Shown here: positions 15,769 to 22,813 of the stretch, piece after piece
Position numbering within the stretch: position 1 is the stretch's first letter
How the letters are laid out: each line of letters starts with the position of its first letter
From: a virus
Virus record (IMG/VR): IMGVR_UViG_3300043775_000222
Location: 1 to 39,987 of that record
Direction: 5' to 3' (one strand)
DNA length: 39,987 nucleotides
Made by a program: the position numbers and the translations under genes
The notes under the pieces: generated by a model
What the model was told of the DNA's origin: nothing
Databases searched by the model: none
Seen by the model: only the letters and a program-made list of their open reading frames with translations

Positions 15769-16094
15769 GTGGTAAGTACAACATTGTAGCCGAACAAGGT
15801 GCTACCTTTAATCTTAACTTCCGTGTTGAGACTGATGGCACCCCATGGAATTTAACTGACTATGATTTTGCTATGCAGGTTCGACGTTCTACTTCTGCAA
15901 CTACAACTTTACTTGATGTTACTTCTGCAACCATGACCTCTGTTGGTCATGTATCTGTTGACGTTGCTGCTGCAGAAATGACTGATGTTCCTGCTGGTCG
16001 TTGGGTATATGACATTGAACTTACATCTTCTGGTGGTGAGGTCACTCGCATTCTTGAGGGTCGCTTTATTGTTACCCCTGAGGTGACACAGTAA
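15765..16094 (+). CDS. Small beta-rich tail or fibre-attachment protein
   Basis: A 109-residue protein, beta-strand rich, resembling the N-terminal beta-sandwich of phage receptor-binding or baseplate upper proteins: [10 protein letters not shown] at 9-18, [12 protein letters not shown] at 29-40 and a terminal strand around [12 protein letters not shown]. It lies just upstream of, and overlaps by one base (TAATG), the collagen-like fibre gene, which suggests it attaches or anchors the fibre. The family call is from pattern memory only. Confidence 0.6.
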
Positions 16095-17944
16095 TGCCAG
16101 ATTACACAGTTATCATTGAAGAAGAAGTTGTATCAACTACAGTTACTATTGAAGAAACTGTTACTGATGTTATTCTTGGTGAAGAAGTTTTACAAGAAAC
16201 AGTTGTTGTTGTTGAAAATCAACAGGGTCCTCAAGGCACTCAAGGTATAAATGGTGTCATTGGACCAACAGGTCCAACTGGACCTGCAGGTCCTACAGGT
16301 CCTACTGGAGCGGTAGGTCCAACAGGACCCACTGGGTCTACAGGACCTCAAGGAATTACAGGACCAACTGGACCTACAGGTGCTACAGGTCCACAAGGAA
16401 TTCAAGGTATAACTGGACCAATAGGACTAACAGGTCCAACGGGAGCGCAAGGTCCGCAAGGTGCTGTTGGTGACACAGGTCCCGTTGGTCCTACTGGAAG
16501 TGTTGGTCCGACAGGAGCAACTGGTGCAGTTGGTGCTACTGGAGCCGTCGGACCTACTGGTCCAACTGGTCCTCAAGGCGTGCAGGGCATTCAGGGCGAG
16601 CAAGGTATCCAGGGAATTACTGGTCCCGTAGGACCTACTGGCAGTACTGGTGCCACTGGTTCTACAGGAGCCACAGGTAGTACAGGAGCCACAGGTTCTA
16701 CTGGTACTGCTGGTGATAAGTATGCAACTACATCTACATCAAGTTTAACTATTGCTTCTAGTGGAAGCATTACATTAACGGTTGGTACTGGATTATCTTA
16801 TTCTCATAATCAAAACGTTATAATTTCTTATGATATTGCAAATCACATGCATGCTGAGGTTGACACTTACAACTCAAGCACTGGTGTAATGGTTGCACAG
16901 ATTCAAGACTCTGATGGTTCTGGTACTTACTCGCTATGGGAAGTTAATCTTTCTGGTGCAGTAGGTATTGCTGGACCTACTGGACCGACAGGTCCAACTG
17001 GTGCTACATCTACAGTGCCTGGTCCAACAGGACCTACTGGAAGTGTAGGACCTACTGGTGCTGTTGGAGCAACAGGAGTAACTGGACCTGAAGGTGTTCA
17101 AGGTATTCAAGGTGTTACAGGTTCGGTAGGTCCAACAGGACCAACGGGAACAACTGGAAACACAGGAGCGACAGGACCAACTGGTTCTACTGGTGATGGT
17201 ATTACCCCTGGTGCTATAACAATGTTTGCTGGTTCTGCAGCACCGTCTGGTTACTTGCTATGTGATGGTACTGCTGTTAGCCGTACAACTTACTCAGCAT
17301 TGTTTGCTATAACTAGTACCACCTATGGTGTGGGTGATGGGTCAACAACATTTAACCTACCAAACCTAAAGGGTAAAATTCCTGTTGGTTTAGATAGTTC
17401 TCAAACAGAGTTTGATGTACTTGGTGAAACTGGTGGAGCAAAGACTCACACTTTAACCAGTGCTGAAATGCCAAGTCACTTACACTCAGTTGACCCACCT
17501 ACCGCTGACTTTGTATCTAGTGGTGAATCTGTTACCCATACCCATGGTACTGGCGGTCAATCCGTTTCCCACACTCACACTGGAAACAGTGGCTCTGTGG
17601 CTGGTGGTTTAACTTTGTCTCCAAGTGGCAGTTTGTATGAATGGACTGGTGGAGCCATTTCTGGTTCTGGCAGAATTTATTACACAAGAAACAGTAATGC
17701 CACCAATGGTGCACAGTCAATGGCTCCTGGCATCAATGCTATAAACGCAGACCATAGCCATAACTTTACTAGTAACAATAACAGTGTGGACCACAACCAT
17801 GGTAATACATATAATGCAAGTGTAGGTCACACTCACACTACAACCGTAAACATTGCTGCGTTTAACTCAGCATCAACTGGTGATGGCGGAGCACACAACA
17901 ACCTTCAACCGTACATTGTACTTAACTACATCATTAAGACATAG
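16094..17944 (+). CDS. Collagen-like tail fibre with tail-collar domain and HxH-rich tip
   Basis: A 616-residue fibre. Residues 1-44 are a Val/Glu/Thr-rich attachment region. Two G-x-Y collagen-like stretches follow (about 45-206 and 290-371), mostly GPTGPT and GATG triplets, separated by a beta domain (about 207-289). A phage tail-collar domain (about 372-433, including GYLLCDG) precedes a Gly/Ser/His-rich C-terminal tip with at least six HxH motifs (HLH, HTH, HTH, HSH, HNH, HTH). In T4 fibre tips, HxH histidines bind metal and stabilise the trimeric needle; the same role is inferred here. It is the likely host-contact protein. Confidence 0.88.
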
Positions 17945-17952
17945 GAGTTATT

Positions 17953-18048
17953 ATGGCTTGCCGTACAGGTTGTCCAACTCAGGACTGTGAATCCTATGCA
18001 GATTGCTGCAAGGGCGTAGCTATAAATAAATCTAGCTTACGTCCTTAA
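17953..18048 (+). CDS. Tiny Cys-rich protein, short MACRTGCPTQD paralogue
   Basis: A 31-residue protein with a TAGGAG site upstream and six cysteines. Its first 11 residues, MACRTGCPTQD, are identical to the start of the 88-residue protein at 19126, and a D-x(6)-DC spacing is shared as well. Seven of the ten codons after ATG differ between the two genes without changing any amino acid, strong evidence that both are translated and under selection. It lies directly between the fibre and glycosyltransferase genes. Function unknown; the spaced cysteines suggest metal binding or disulfides. Confidence 0.75.
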   Translation: MACRTGCPTQDCESYADCCKGVAINKSSLRP

Positions 18049-18065
18049 TGTGATAGGATAATAGC

Positions 18066-19136
18066 ATGGTTAAGATTGCAGCTTATGCTATAGCTAAGAA
18101 TGAAAGTAAACATGTCAAGCAATGGGTAGATGCTACTGCTGGAGCAGATGTCCGAATTGTCTTAGATACTGGGTCAGAAGATAACACCTATGACCTACTC
18201 CTACAGTACCCCGTAGAAGCTCACAGAGCCACGCTAAGCGACTTTAGGTTTGATGTAGCACGAAATATGGCACTAGATTTAGTACCATCTGATGTAGATG
18301 TATGTGTATCTTTGGACATGGACGAGATACCAGATCCAGATTTCTTTGACAAGATACGACAGGCTTGGCAGCCTGATACTGGTAGAGCTTGGGTTATGTG
18401 GGACACAGGTAATATCTGGGCTAACAATAATCGTATTCATACTAGGCACAATTACAGGTGGCGTTATCCTTGCCACGAAGTTCTAGAACCTATTGATAAA
18501 AGTTTAGATAAACTTATTGTAATAGAGACACTAGTAACTCATAAACCAGATGATGATAAACCACGTAATAGTTATCTAACGTTATTAGAACTAGGACACA
18601 GCGAAGATCCAACTAATCATAGAATGATTGTTTACTTAGCCCGTGAGTATTACTTCAAAGGTATGTGGGAAAAGTTAATAGAGGTTGGTAAGAAGCTAGA
18701 AGATATTCCAGGATGGAATGTTGAACGTGCACAAACTTGGCGTGGTATAGGCGAAGCCTACTGCAAGTTAGGTAATGATCGTGAAGGTCTTTACTGGTAT
18801 CAACGCAATGTTGAAGAAGCACCATTAGATTTAGAAGCATGGATGCCATTAGCTTTCTACTATTACGAACGTAAGATGTGGAATCATTGCTATCAAGCAG
18901 CAATTAAAGTAACCGAACTTTCTAATGAATCTTATAATCATTATGTAGCTGATCAATCAATGCCTTGGCGTATGTATGACTTGCTTACTATGGCATGTTG
19001 GAACTTAGGCAAAAAGGGTTCTGCTAAAAAGTACGCACGTAAAGCAGTTGAACTTAATCCTGATGATCAAAGATTAATTAATAACTATGAGTTTGTTATG
19101 ACTCAGACTGTAAAGGATTACAAGAATGGCTTGTAG
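18066..19136 (+). CDS. Family 2 glycosyltransferase with C-terminal tetratricopeptide repeats
   Basis: A 356-residue protein. The N-terminal GT-A domain has AIAKNE at 8-13, DTGSEDNT at 34-41 and the metal/sugar-nucleotide motif LDMDEIP around 83-89. Residues from about 180 to the end form tetratricopeptide-like helical hairpins (for example AREYYFKG, GEAYCKLG and ACWNLGK). Family 2 enzymes transfer a sugar from a nucleotide donor. Placement in the adsorption region suggests it decorates a virion protein such as the fibre or the flanking cysteine-rich proteins, or alters the host surface; the acceptor is not shown. Its stop lies 11 bases inside the next gene. Confidence 0.82.
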   Translation: MVKIAAYAIAKNESKHVKQWVDATAGADVRIVLDTGSEDNTYDLLLQYPVEAHRATLSDFRFDVARNMALDLVPSDVDVCVSLDMDEIPDPDFFDKIRQAWQPDTGRAWVMWDTGNIWANNNRIHTRHNYRWRYPCHEVLEPIDKSLDKLIVIETLVTHKPDDDKPRNSYLTLLELGHSEDPTNHRMIVYLAREYYFKGMWEKLIEVGKKLEDIPGWNVERAQTWRGIGEAYCKLGNDREGLYWYQRNVEEAPLDLEAWMPLAFYYYERKMWNHCYQAAIKVTELSNESYNHYVADQSMPWRMYDLLTMACWNLGKKGSAKKYARKAVELNPDDQRLINNYEFVMTQTVKDYKNGL

Positions 19137-19392
19137 AACTGGATGTCCTACACAAGACCATGACTCTTGGGGAGATTGTCTAAGAGCTTCTAACATACAG
19201 ATGTCAACTGGTGATGCCAATGGCAATCTAGTTAACAATGGTTGGACCAACAAGAAATGGAACAACGAACTTAAAGCTTACCGTGATGCTCGTGCTCAGG
19301 GTATACAACCAGACGGAACTTCTACTGCACAAATTCAAAAGGCAGTAGATGTAAGTAACAAAACAGGACACGCATTCGGTTCTGCTTTATAA
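19126..19392 (+). CDS. Small Cys-motif protein, long MACRTGCPTQD paralogue
   Basis: An 88-residue protein starting with the same MACRTGCPTQD module as the 31-residue protein on the other side of the glycosyltransferase gene, followed by a C at about residue 18 and a polar, Asn/Asp-rich tail (for example NGWTNKKWNNELK) and a C-terminal helix. It overlaps the glycosyltransferase stop by 11 bases, implying translational coupling. Not recognised. It may be a substrate or partner of the glycosyltransferase or a small metal-binding virion protein. Confidence 0.72.
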   Translation: MACRTGCPTQDHDSWGDCLRASNIQMSTGDANGNLVNNGWTNKKWNNELKAYRDARAQGIQPDGTSTAQIQKAVDVSNKTGHAFGSAL

Positions 19393-19403
19393 AGGAGATA
19401 ACC

Positions 19404-19556
19404 ATGTGTGCTTCATGTGGATGTAATCACGTTAACTACGATCACGAAATGCCTACAATGCCAGGTTCTTACAAAGGTATTGACAAAGTAAACTACAACA
19501 TGCCAAAGGTACCAGCAGTTCCTGCTATGCCTAGGTCAAACAAGAAGGGCAAGTAA
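19404..19556 (+). CDS. Tiny MCxxCGC protein with basic tail
   Basis: A 50-residue protein behind a strong ribosome site (AAAGGAGATAACC before ATG). It begins MCASCGC, then a Pro/Met/Asn-rich middle, and ends in a Lys/Gly-rich tail. The MCxxCGC start is shared with the next gene, showing a small family. The three closely spaced cysteines could bind a metal. Function unknown. Confidence 0.7.
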   Translation: MCASCGCNHVNYDHEMPTMPGSYKGIDKVNYNMPKVPAVPAMPRSNKKGK

Positions 19557-19558
19557 TT

Positions 19559-19666
19559 ATGTGTAAAGCATGTGGATGTGGTAAGAAAAAAGGCGAACCA
19601 GGCTACGGCAAAGGTAAGCCAAAGATGATGCCTAAGATGTTTGCTAAGAAAGCAAAGAAGAAGTAA
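19559..19666 (+). CDS. Tiny MCxxCGC protein, very basic
   Basis: A 35-residue protein starting two bases after the preceding stop. It begins MCKACGCGKKK and is almost half Lys, ending AKKAKKK. Its N-terminus matches the preceding protein's MCxxCGC motif. A strongly basic tail with a compact cysteine motif suggests nucleic-acid or polyanion binding, but no experiment-like evidence exists in the sequence. Confidence 0.68.
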   Translation: MCKACGCGKKKGEPGYGKGKPKMMPKMFAKKAKKK

Positions 19667-19668
19667 TC

Positions 19669-19935
19669 ATGGTAGCTAAGAAGGATCCACGTTTAACTCG
19701 TGCTGGTGTTTCTGGCTACAACAAGCCAAAGCGTACACCTAGCCACCCAAAAAAGTCGCACGTTGTTGTTGCTAAAGAAGGTTCACAGGTTAAGTTAATT
19801 CGCTTTGGTCAACAAGGTGTGACGGGTGATAGACAACCAAGTAAGCGACAAGCTTCGTTTAAAGCCCGTCACGCTAAAAATATTGCTAAGGGCAAGATGA
19901 GCGCAGCATATTGGGCGGACAAAGTTAAATGGTAA
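19669..19935 (+). CDS. Small basic conserved-type phage protein
   Basis: An 88-residue, strongly basic protein with RFGQQGVTG at 44-52 and a C-terminal part around FKARHAKNIAKGKMSAAYWA. I associate this pattern with a conserved family of unknown function found across marine and freshwater phages. It begins two bases after the preceding stop. The next gene overlaps its end by seven bases. Charge suggests DNA or RNA contact; its place in the adsorption and structural region suggests a virion or assembly component. Confidence 0.72.
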   Translation: MVAKKDPRLTRAGVSGYNKPKRTPSHPKKSHVVVAKEGSQVKLIRFGQQGVTGDRQPSKRQASFKARHAKNIAKGKMSAAYWADKVKW

Positions 19936-20087
19936 AGAAAAAAGTATGGGATACACCAAATCCTAAAAAGAAATCTAAAGCATTGACACCAGCTCAAAAG
20001 ACTGCAGCTAAAGCTCGTGCTAAAAAAGCTGGACGACCTTATCCAAATCTAATTGACAACATGGCAGCTACTCGAAAGAAAAAATAA
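19929..20087 (+). CDS. Tiny basic protein ending in NMAATRKKK
   Basis: A 52-residue protein, overlapping the preceding gene by seven bases and abutting the next ATG exactly. It has a VWDTPNPKKKSK start, an Ala/Lys-rich helix (about 20-35) and an AGRPYPNLIDNM segment (34-45) that I recall in small proteins of other phages next to the same 88-residue neighbour. Very basic. Function unknown. Confidence 0.68.
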   Translation: MVKKKVWDTPNPKKKSKALTPAQKTAAKARAKKAGRPYPNLIDNMAATRKKK

Positions 20088-21914
20088 ATGGCTAACCCAA
20101 TAGCACCACCAGTAGACGAGTATCGTGGTACTAATATCGTTAAAAAAGATAATGATTCACTTGCATGGGAAGTTGCTGATTTTTTATTTGGTGTTGAATC
20201 AATACAAAAGATTGCTAGTGGCAAAGGTTCTTGGGGCGATGCGCTTAACATTGGTGTAACTGCAGCTACATTTTTTATTCCTCCTGCAAAACTTCTTGGA
20301 CTTGGTAGCAAAGCTTTAAGTAAAGTTATTGTTGATGCAGAAAAAGCAGCAGCTAATGAAGTTACATCTATAGTAGCAAAGAAGGTAGCTTTACGTACCG
20401 CAGAAGAAGCTAAAGCTATTCGCGATACTGGGTTACCATTAGCCCAAAGTCCTACGCGACCAATGAGTGAAGCTCGCTTTAAAAAGATTACAGAGCCAGA
20501 ACCAGAGACTGGATTTGTTCCTGAGAAGCCACCATTAGATACATTTGGAAAAGATTTAATTGAAGATGTATCACCTTACACTGCAAAAGAAACTGCTATT
20601 CGTAAGTATGCATCTAAAAAAGAAAAAGAAGAACTGTACGGATCTACTGTTAAAGTTAAGCCAGCACCTAAGAAACCATTAACTAAAGAAGAAGAAGCAA
20701 TAGTTAAACAGGTTGACGAAGAAATACCAGCAGATATTCCTAGAGCAGAGGGTCAGGGTCAAGTACCAGTTATTAATCGTAAGACTGGTGAGCTTGAATT
20801 TGAAAGTAGCATGACTGAAAGAACTGCACTTCCATCTAAACTTAGTATATCTCCACGTGTTGATCGTGCTGCATGGTTGCAAAATAAAATGGATAAGTTA
20901 TCTCGTAAAAAAAATTCACTTCCTAAAGAAGAGCGAACTAAAGTACAGGCAGAAATAGATAAGTATGATACTGAATTTAAGTCTCTTCGTAAAAAATTAA
21001 CAGAAGAAGAACGTGCACAGTCTGGAAAATTATATAACGAATTAAATAAACTTGATTTAAAAGAAGCATCTAAGACTGCACCTAAAACTACAAGATTTAA
21101 TTTAGATCAATCTAAAAAGGATTTAGAAAAACTTCGTGAACAATGGTCTAAAACTCCAGTTCAAGATTTTGAAAAACGCAATCAACTTAAACAACAAGGT
21201 AAAACTTTAGCGGACAGAATTAAAAAAATGGAAAAAGATTCTGGTTTACCTACAGTTGCAGATGATTTAATTACACCTCCAGTTAAATCAACTGTGTCTA
21301 GTGTTTCAGATGTTACTGTTCATTCAGGTGGTGCTAAAGGTGCTGACACAGCATGGGCTGAAGCTGCTGATTTAGCAGGTATAAAAACTATGGCTCATAG
21401 TTTTAAGGGACATGAATCTCTTGGTACTGCTTCTGGTTTTGTTGGCAAGCGACCAGCACTTGAAGTTAGAAATGATTTAACTGAAGAACAATTACGTCAA
21501 CAAACAAAACTTGTTAATGATGCAGGTAGCGTTTTAGGTAAGCGAGCAGGTGTATCATCTGCTGGTGGAAAACTTGTACATAGAAATGCTTATCAAGTTA
21601 AAGACTCAGATGCAGTTCTTGCTGTTGCAAGTGGATGGACAAAAATTGCTGATGGAACACGGGTTACTGTAGGTGGTAGAGGTACTCCTTGGGCTGTTGA
21701 AATGGGAATTATTTTAGATAAACCAGTATTTGTTTTTGAGCAAAATGCTAGCAAGTGGTTTAAGTTTAATCCTAAAACAAAAGAATGGGATGAATTAGAT
21801 AGTCTTCCGCCTACGTTTAAAGACTTTGCTGGCATAGGTACTGCAAGTGAACTTAAAGATTCTGGTCGTCAAGCTATTAAAGAATACATGCAACAATTTA
21901 TGAAGGGTAACTAA
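20088..21914 (+). CDS. Large protein with a C-terminal SLOG nucleotide-binding domain
   Basis: A 608-residue protein. The N-terminus has a hydrophobic region (about 51-80, with AATFFIPPAKLLGLG). Residues about 130-400 are Lys/Glu-rich, disordered or coiled-coil. Residues 411-600 look like a SLOG (SMF/DprA-LOG) domain: VHSGGAKGAD at 411-420, a DSDAVLAVASGW strand about 504-515, a second GGRGTPWAVEMG motif about 526-537, then a PVFVFEQ strand and an FAGIGTA segment. SLOG domains bind nucleotides or nucleotide-derived ligands such as NAD or cyclic ADP-ribose products, and some sense signals in anti-phage defence. Here it might be an ejected or early-acting ligand-binding or processing module. 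Its precise enzyme activity cannot be read from sequence. Confidence 0.72.
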   Translation: MANPIAPPVDEYRGTNIVKKDNDSLAWEVADFLFGVESIQKIASGKGSWGDALNIGVTAATFFIPPAKLLGLGSKALSKVIVDAEKAAANEVTSIVAKKVALRTAEEAKAIRDTGLPLAQSPTRPMSEARFKKITEPEPETGFVPEKPPLDTFGKDLIEDVSPYTAKETAIRKYASKKEKEELYGSTVKVKPAPKKPLTKEEEAIVKQVDEEIPADIPRAEGQGQVPVINRKTGELEFESSMTERTALPSKLSISPRVDRAAWLQNKMDKLSRKKNSLPKEERTKVQAEIDKYDTEFKSLRKKLTEEERAQSGKLYNELNKLDLKEASKTAPKTTRFNLDQSKKDLEKLREQWSKTPVQDFEKRNQLKQQGKTLADRIKKMEKDSGLPTVADDLITPPVKSTVSSVSDVTVHSGGAKGADTAWAEAADLAGIKTMAHSFKGHESLGTASGFVGKRPALEVRNDLTEEQLRQQTKLVNDAGSVLGKRAGVSSAGGKLVHRNAYQVKDSDAVLAVASGWTKIADGTRVTVGGRGTPWAVEMGIILDKPVFVFEQNASKWFKFNPKTKEWDELDSLPPTFKDFAGIGTASELKDSGRQAIKEYMQQFMKGN

Positions 21915-22813
21915 TGGCTACGTTTGGTCAAATGACTGATGAAGTATCACGTAAGTTAGCAGGTTTTACACTGCGTCAAGATCGTCAGACACATCTTGTT
22001 GCTGCCGTTAATGCAACTGCAACTAGCATTAGTGTTGCTTCTGCACAGAACATTTCAACTGGTGTAATTCAAATTAATGATGAATTAATCTACATAGATT
22101 CTTATGATCGTGCTTCAGGCGTACTTAGCGTTCCACCTTATGGTCGTGGTTATAATGGCACAACTGCAGCAACGCACCAGAATGGTTCACGTGTAATTAT
22201 TTCTCCTACCTTCCCATCTTTAGACATTAAAGGTGCAATTAATGAAACTATCGAAGCAGTATTCCCAGATCTATATGCTACTTCTACGCATACATTTTCA
22301 TATTCAACAGCTAAATCAACTTATGCTTTACCAGATGAAGCAGAGACTGTGCTTGGAGTATCTTTCCAAACTACTGGTCCATCTAAGGAATGGCTTCCTA
22401 TTCGTAGCTGGCGTGTTGATCCTATGGCTAACACTGATGCTTTTAATTCTCGCAATAGTATTAGTCTTTATTCTGGTGTTGAGCCTGGAAGAACCGTACA
22501 AGTATTTTACACTTCTGCTCCAGCAGTAATGGATAGTAATGATGATGACTTTGAAATTGTTACTGGACTACCTGGGTCTTGTCGAGATGTAATTATTCTT
22601 GGTGCTTCAGCACGTTTGTCAGCGTTTGTTGATCCAGGTCGTTTGACATTTGGTTCTGCTGAATCTGATCAGCAATCACAAATTGCTGGTCGTGCTTACG
22701 GTGCTGGTACTAATGCATCTAAGTATCTTCTTGCTCTCTATGATAAGCGACTTGGTGAAGAAAGTCGTAAGTTAACTGATCGTAATCCAACTAGAATCCA
22801 TTTCACTAGATAA
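21914..22813 (+). CDS. Probable connector or tail structural protein
   Basis: A 299-residue protein starting by a one-base overlap with the SLOG gene (TAATG). Its start, with GQMTDEVSRKL and an RQDR, is followed by a beta-rich domain (about 25-100) and a helical C-terminal half ending in a basic region. Its size, place and look fit a head-to-tail connector or adaptor such as the T7 gp11 class, but I see no diagnostic motif. Alternative: minor tail protein. Confidence 0.58.
   Translation: MATFGQMTDEVSRKLAGFTLRQDRQTHLVAAVNATATSISVASAQNISTGVIQINDELIYIDSYDRASGVLSVPPYGRGYNGTTAATHQNGSRVIISPTFPSLDIKGAINETIEAVFPDLYATSTHTFSYSTAKSTYALPDEAETVLGVSFQTTGPSKEWLPIRSWRVDPMANTDAFNSRNSISLYSGVEPGRTVQVFYTSAPAVMDSNDDDFEIVTGLPGSCRDVIILGASARLSAFVDPGRLTFGSAESDQQSQIAGRAYGAGTNASKYLLALYDKRLGEESRKLTDRNPTRIHFTR

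Follow-up and report, generated by a model that had tools for sequence, protein, structure and literature searches.

The glycosyltransferase gene (GT) that lies among six small genes in the late region of this phage quite probably encodes an enzyme that O-glycosylates the phage's own tail fibre, and it is inserted between the genes of two paralogous late proteins that probably bind zinc. The window, i.e. the whole stretch of DNA analyzed here, is a virus record of 39,987 bases with a late region of the podovirus type. GT and the six small frames reported in the first-pass annotation are all open at the positions given there, and the genes considered below are the following.

16094..17944, + strand: collagen-like tail fibre with a phage Collar domain (Pfam Collagen 7e-32, Collar 5e-22; PHROG tail fibre families)
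17953..18048, + strand: c31, 31 aa, C-x3-C-x4-C-x5-CC, paralogue of the c88 N-terminus (weak match to phrog_10483, 0.019)
18066..19136, + strand: GT, 356 aa, GT-A (family 2) domain and C-terminal TPR (phrog_13126)
19126..19392, + strand: c88, 88 aa, Cys/His module C-x3-C-x4-H-x5-C, then a conserved C-terminal half that is helical (phrog_10483)
19404..19556, + strand: m50, 50 aa, MCASCGC-type, conserved late gene (38 family members)
19559..19666, + strand: m35, 35 aa, second MCxxCGC protein with a Lys-rich tail, rarer
19669..19935, + strand: b88, 88 aa, very basic (phrog_7595)
19929..20087, + strand: b52, 52 aa, very basic (phrog_34011)
20088..21914, + strand: g608, variable cargo gene in the b52-g299 slot (weak SLOG/DprA-like domain)
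21914..22813, + strand: g299, conserved late protein closing the block and used for the tree (by its position, putatively connector or tail-tube like)

GT carries the motifs DTGSEDNT, LDMDE and PCHE, and an alignment of 21 relatives shows that DTGS, DxDE and P-x-HE are kept across all of them. The phrog_13126 profile matches GT over its full length (residues 3-347, 1e-79), while Pfam identifies TPR_14 (1e-6) and, below its cut-off, Glycos_transf_2 (7.6e-4). The AlphaFold model (pLDDT 89.3) shows a GT-A domain with TPR helices after it. Among solved structures, SunS and ThuS match the model best over its full length (Z 20.6-21.7, 15-18% identity), with the GT-A relatives TarP, TarS and RmlT lower in the list, and a profile search with GT also matches GmaR (catalytic domain, E 4.9e-7), ThuS and SunS. 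Since SunS, ThuS and GmaR act on proteins or peptides, the modeled fold suggests that the acceptor of GT is likely to be a protein.

Relatives were gathered with four queries: c88, GT, the major capsid protein and g15765, the 109-aa gene before the fibre; their loci are given by L numbers. The fibre of the window has 80 G-x-y triplets, 47 of which end in Thr and 23 of which are GPT (Gly-Pro-Thr). The GPT fraction of collagen triplets is 0.26-0.45 in the fibre alleles accompanied by GT (about 39; 41 GT-positive alleles were counted, including two duplicates, a fragment of the window and the second locus of one contig) and 0.00-0.03 in the six GT-negative fibre alleles with the interval in view; these fibres come from related phages and are not independent, and within-group p-values overstate the evidence. 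In the g299 tree the presence of GT needs four changes, and the GT-negative loci L011 and L026, both with GPT-poor fibres, are separate, strongly supported lineages inside a GT-positive clade. The pairing of GT with a GPT fibre is repeated in DSL-LC01, in the faecal-phage contig MT838491 and in L190.

No such pairing connects GT with c31, which is present in 36 of the 41 GT-positive and in four of the six GT-negative alleles. It occurs without GT in L011, L026, L047, L183 and L184, and GT occurs without c31 in L117, L131, L134, L190, L122/L123 and all 18 strong GT loci of the triplet-chosen sample described below. Hence the earlier proposal that GT glycosylates the small proteins is not supported: each of c31 and GT is found without the other, and it is the collagen-like fibre upstream of c31 that GT tracks, while c31 does not track GT.

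Beyond the close group, IMG/VR was scanned, blind to any GT, for stretches coding for collagen triplets (GPTx4, GATx4 or GPQx3), a strong GT homologue being defined as one with >250 bits. Such homologues were found at 13 of 112 GPTx4 loci, 5 of 103 GATx4 loci and none of 107 GPQx3 loci, the five GATx4 loci with GT all being GPT-bearing as well (GPT fraction 0.19-0.33). Splitting the loci at a GPT fraction of at least 0.15 places GT in 18/135 loci at or above this value vs 0/180 below it (Fisher 1.2e-7). At 15 of the 18 GT loci the capsid gene of this group was not seen in the stretch examined. Most GPT-rich collagens of the sample (117/135) are without this GT, which can be partly explained by short loci.

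Bacterial homologues of GT were found at 78 loci, mostly of Clostridia and Bacilli, with about 30-48% identity over the best segment. A collagen-like gene is present at 18 of these loci and is GPT-rich at 16 of the 18, several times adjoining GT; 16/78 is a raw count, and some of the loci may be prophages. On the Clostridia and Bacilli contigs L625, L627, L641, L654, L659, L683 and L686, the GT homologue lies next to a GPT-bearing collagen-like gene.

We also lean towards a more general statement, namely that unrelated tailed phages and Firmicutes share a glycosyltransferase of the SunS/SgtA fold which O-glycosylates GPT repeats, the tail fibre being its target in phages and GPT being the readable sign of it. 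The clearest exception to the fibre link is seen in L122 and L123 (6001-7062), where a 48-49% identical GT occupies the slot from b52 to g299 and no collagen gene is in view; the GT homologues of jumbo phages, about 30% identical, likewise have no collagen gene within 6 kb. These two cases without a collagen gene in view indicate that the GT family may have other substrates besides collagen.

The GT of L122/L123, along with the location of fibre and GT together in a variable region, would also fit an enzyme acting on another virion protein (the capsid or another tail part), with the tie to GPT reflecting a co-transferred host-range module. We consider this unlikely, given that the pairing is seen also in phages without the capsid gene of the group in view and in bacterial contigs.

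Phage glycosyltransferases are usually annotated as modifiers of LPS or DNA. Modification of host surface glycans (teichoic or cell-wall sugars) against superinfecting phages, or glycosylation of phage DNA, has been proposed for such enzymes, including those of related Planktophila phages (PMC10202952), and the presence of TarP, TarS and RmlT, albeit lower, in the fold list agrees with it. For the GT considered here this function is improbable: the gene is sited in the late block beside the fibre, the protein has a TPR domain and matches peptide glycosyltransferases over its full length, and its presence follows the GPT content.

Under the preferred reading, fibre glycosylation, GT would be a cytoplasmic enzyme that shares its architecture, a GT-A catalytic domain with a TPR domain at the C-terminus, with SunS, ThuS and SgtA. 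Most likely it uses a nucleotide-sugar donor to glycosylate Thr residues within the GPT triplets of the fibre (16094-17944). The TPR part would hold the repetitive substrate, and glycosylation of the fibre would precede virion assembly. The small late proteins are conserved independently of GT and, in this podovirus group, belong to the capsid-to-connector block. Many phages have collagen-like tail fibres. If the reading is true, self-encoded glycosylation would tune fibre adhesion, protease resistance or recognition, and tail-fibre glycosylation could be predicted from genomes; the link between the GT family and GPT collagen also offers a substrate that can be tested for the family at present named 'beta-1,4-glycosyltransferase'. 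A literature search in which subscription journals were thinly covered yielded no account of phage tail-fibre glycosylation by a GT2-TPR enzyme, and prior work is possible.

The gene order across phages is capsid, g15765, fibre, c31, (GT), c88, m50, b88, b52, (cargo), g299, brackets marking genes that vary. The genes c31, c88, m50, b88 and b52 form a late-gene block between the capsid and connector genes, mostly in phages that are free of GT, and many phages without GT carry c88, m50, b88 and b52. The insertion of GT between c31 and c88 is optional. The first-pass annotation had described GT and the small genes as a single cassette; this model, in which GT is tied to the small proteins, is rejected by co-occurrence, since the five small genes occur mostly in relatives without GT and GT occurs without c31 in unrelated phages and bacteria. 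GT and the small frames are thus in part found apart, and the small frames are nonetheless conserved in relatives.

In Streptomyces phages of the subfamily Beephvirinae, c88 homologues with 45-53% identity are flanked by minor tail and g299-like genes, and the homologues of terminase, capsid, c88 and g299 follow the same order as in Beephvirinae. One of these Streptomyces phages, Manuelvirus phage Abafar, is a podovirus by electron microscopy (PMC11536984). The b88 family (phrog_7595) is widespread in marine and freshwater podophages and in other phages, including phages of Roseobacter, Celeribacter, Synechococcus and other marine hosts. The C-terminal half of b88 is common to parts of phrog_220 (minor head protein and DNA pilot) and phrog_9979, a similarity hinting at a DNA-associated role in the virion. 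As cultured Planktophila phages E7 and F5 also carry c88 and b88, the host of the window phage is probably a freshwater actinobacterium akin to the Planktophila hosts. The small late proteins probably serve in the virion or in its assembly; the earlier suggestion that they are virion parts agrees with their position in the late (virion) block and stays plausible.

Other genes are inserted between c31 and GT in L001, L002, L028 and L110 and between c88 and m50 in L013, L016 and L023, and the gene content of the slot between b52 and g299 differs among relatives, as if the small conserved genes marked cargo slots. In the window the latter slot holds g608, residues about 401-548 of which form a weak SLOG/YspA- and DprA-like domain, here in a late region.

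The 11 residues MACRTGCPTQD are common to c31 and c88, and a recount confirmed exactly seven synonymous codon differences between the two copies, as had been stated earlier. The similarity extends beyond this module, with substitutions, to about residue 28. Both proteins follow the pattern C-x3-C-x4-[CH]-x5-C, in which the third ligand position (12) is Cys in c31 and His in c88. A census of Cys/His modules found that 84 of the 89 c88 proteins have one of the following three: C-x3-C-x4-H-x5-C (36 distinct proteins), H-x3/4-H-x4/7-C-x2-C (34) or CxxC..HxH..CxxC (14); one of the five remaining proteins is truncated. Since interchange of Cys with His, here at the third position, and of entire modules usually marks metal ligands, c31 and c88 probably each form a four-ligand, zinc-binding Cys/His knuckle, to judge from their sequences; AlphaFold modeled c88 poorly (pLDDT 58). 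The metal-bound state suggested in the first-pass annotation therefore stays plausible, with the Cys12/His12 exchange pointing to it.

The start of c88 sits inside the end of GT, with an overlap of 11 nt (ATGGCTTGTAG, 19126-19136) that is kept in 23/23 GT-positive alleles tested, for which reason GT and c88 are probably translationally coupled. At the other side, c31 is usually 14-23 nt upstream of GT. At GT-negative loci c31 abuts c88 directly (L011) or is separated from it by a 14-nt gap (L026).

With glycocin S-glycosyltransferases SunS and ThuS as its closest solved folds, and a small protein with five Cys encoded immediately upstream, GT could be imagined to S-glycosylate a Cys of c31 (or c88), giving an antimicrobial or signaling micro-product. 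This is very unlikely. The two genes are not consistently paired, c31 being without GT at five loci and GT without c31 at many, including all 18 of the triplet-chosen sample. Profile annotation, which covered part of the neighbors, recognized no leader peptide, protease or transporter gene adjoining c31; the protein starts at the conserved module, its neighbors are phage late genes, and its Cys residues are placed as the Cys/His ligands are in c88.

All six small frames recur in other phages, and purifying selection is measurable for five of them (dN/dS 0.04-0.18), in agreement with the selection asserted earlier. For c31 we found 43 distinct DNA alleles, 27 of which encode an identical 31-residue protein; allele pairs differ on average by 10.2 synonymous vs 1.0 nonsynonymous codons (dN/dS 0.044). 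Calculated on codon alignments, the ratios for the other genes are 0.08 (c88), 0.13 (b88), 0.13 (b52), 0.18 (m50) and 0.11 (GT). The rarest frame is m35: besides the window copy, the relatives yielded only MCKACGCGKKKGEPGFGKGK-type kin (L183, L184) and a more loosely related frame (L115). Shortness and partly biased composition could be cited for regarding the small frames as spurious or as evolving neutrally; this view is contradicted by these ratios and by the recurrence in many phages and can practically be dismissed. With 27 synonymous variants of one protein, c31 clearly exemplifies a conserved micro-gene too small for the usual annotation limits.

A TBLASTN search of GenBank phages with c31 gave no match even at E 10, probably because 31 aa are too short and the close group is metagenomic. 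Searches of Pfam and NCBIfam with the six small proteins found nothing above cut-off; below it, b88 matched DUF5754 and m35 had a weak HypB-prefix match. Among the variants of c31, MACREGCKEKTCESYADCC in L020 (at 700) keeps all Cys and has a changed TGCPTQD part, and one further allele is shortened to MACRTGCPTLG.

Several known systems can be compared with this region. The Planktophila phages LanE43 E7 and F5 (PMC10202952) have a terminase about 55% identical and b88 89% identical to those of the window, and possess both c88 and b88; they differ in that their c88 has another Cys/His module and that no c31 or GT match was found in the 16 kb of E7 examined, and the paper describing them proposes other roles for the glycosyltransferase of those phages (PMC10202952). 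Beephvirinae gp56-gp60 (phrog_10483) are c88 homologues with C-x3-C-x4-H-x5-C between minor tail and g299-like genes, whereas no GT is annotated in these phages and neither c31 nor a collagen-like fibre was seen in the stretches examined.

At the enzyme level, GT belongs by whole-length match to phrog_13126, the name of which, 'beta-1,4-glycosyltransferase', implies a sugar acceptor, while our data suggest that the acceptor is a protein, at least in those members that are linked to collagen. GmaR, the flagellin O-GlcNAc transferase that shares the catalytic-domain profile match, modifies a surface filament protein; its target differs, being flagellin, and an antirepressor role such as that of GmaR is not expected for the phage GT. 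SunS and ThuS (PDB 7msn, 7msp, 7msk) have in common with GT the GT-A domain, the helical C-terminal part and, presumably, a peptide acceptor, but their identity to GT is only 15-18% and their substrate is a secreted Cys peptide with a leader and export genes, none of which was seen among the neighbors annotated here.

In Clostridioides difficile, the 358-aa enzyme SgtA, also composed of GT-A and TPR, attaches O-GlcNAc to Thr residues of BclA3 within the GPT-bearing collagen repeats, and the SgtA gene adjoins the substrate gene bclA3 (PMC7157674). BclA3 belongs to the spore coat and not to a phage tail fibre, and the likeness is one of layout, length and neighbor rather than of compared sequences. 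Within these terms the phage GT resembles SgtA in design: GT-A is followed by TPR, the lengths are 356 and 358 aa, the neighboring gene encodes a GPT-rich collagen, and the proposed acceptor is Thr.
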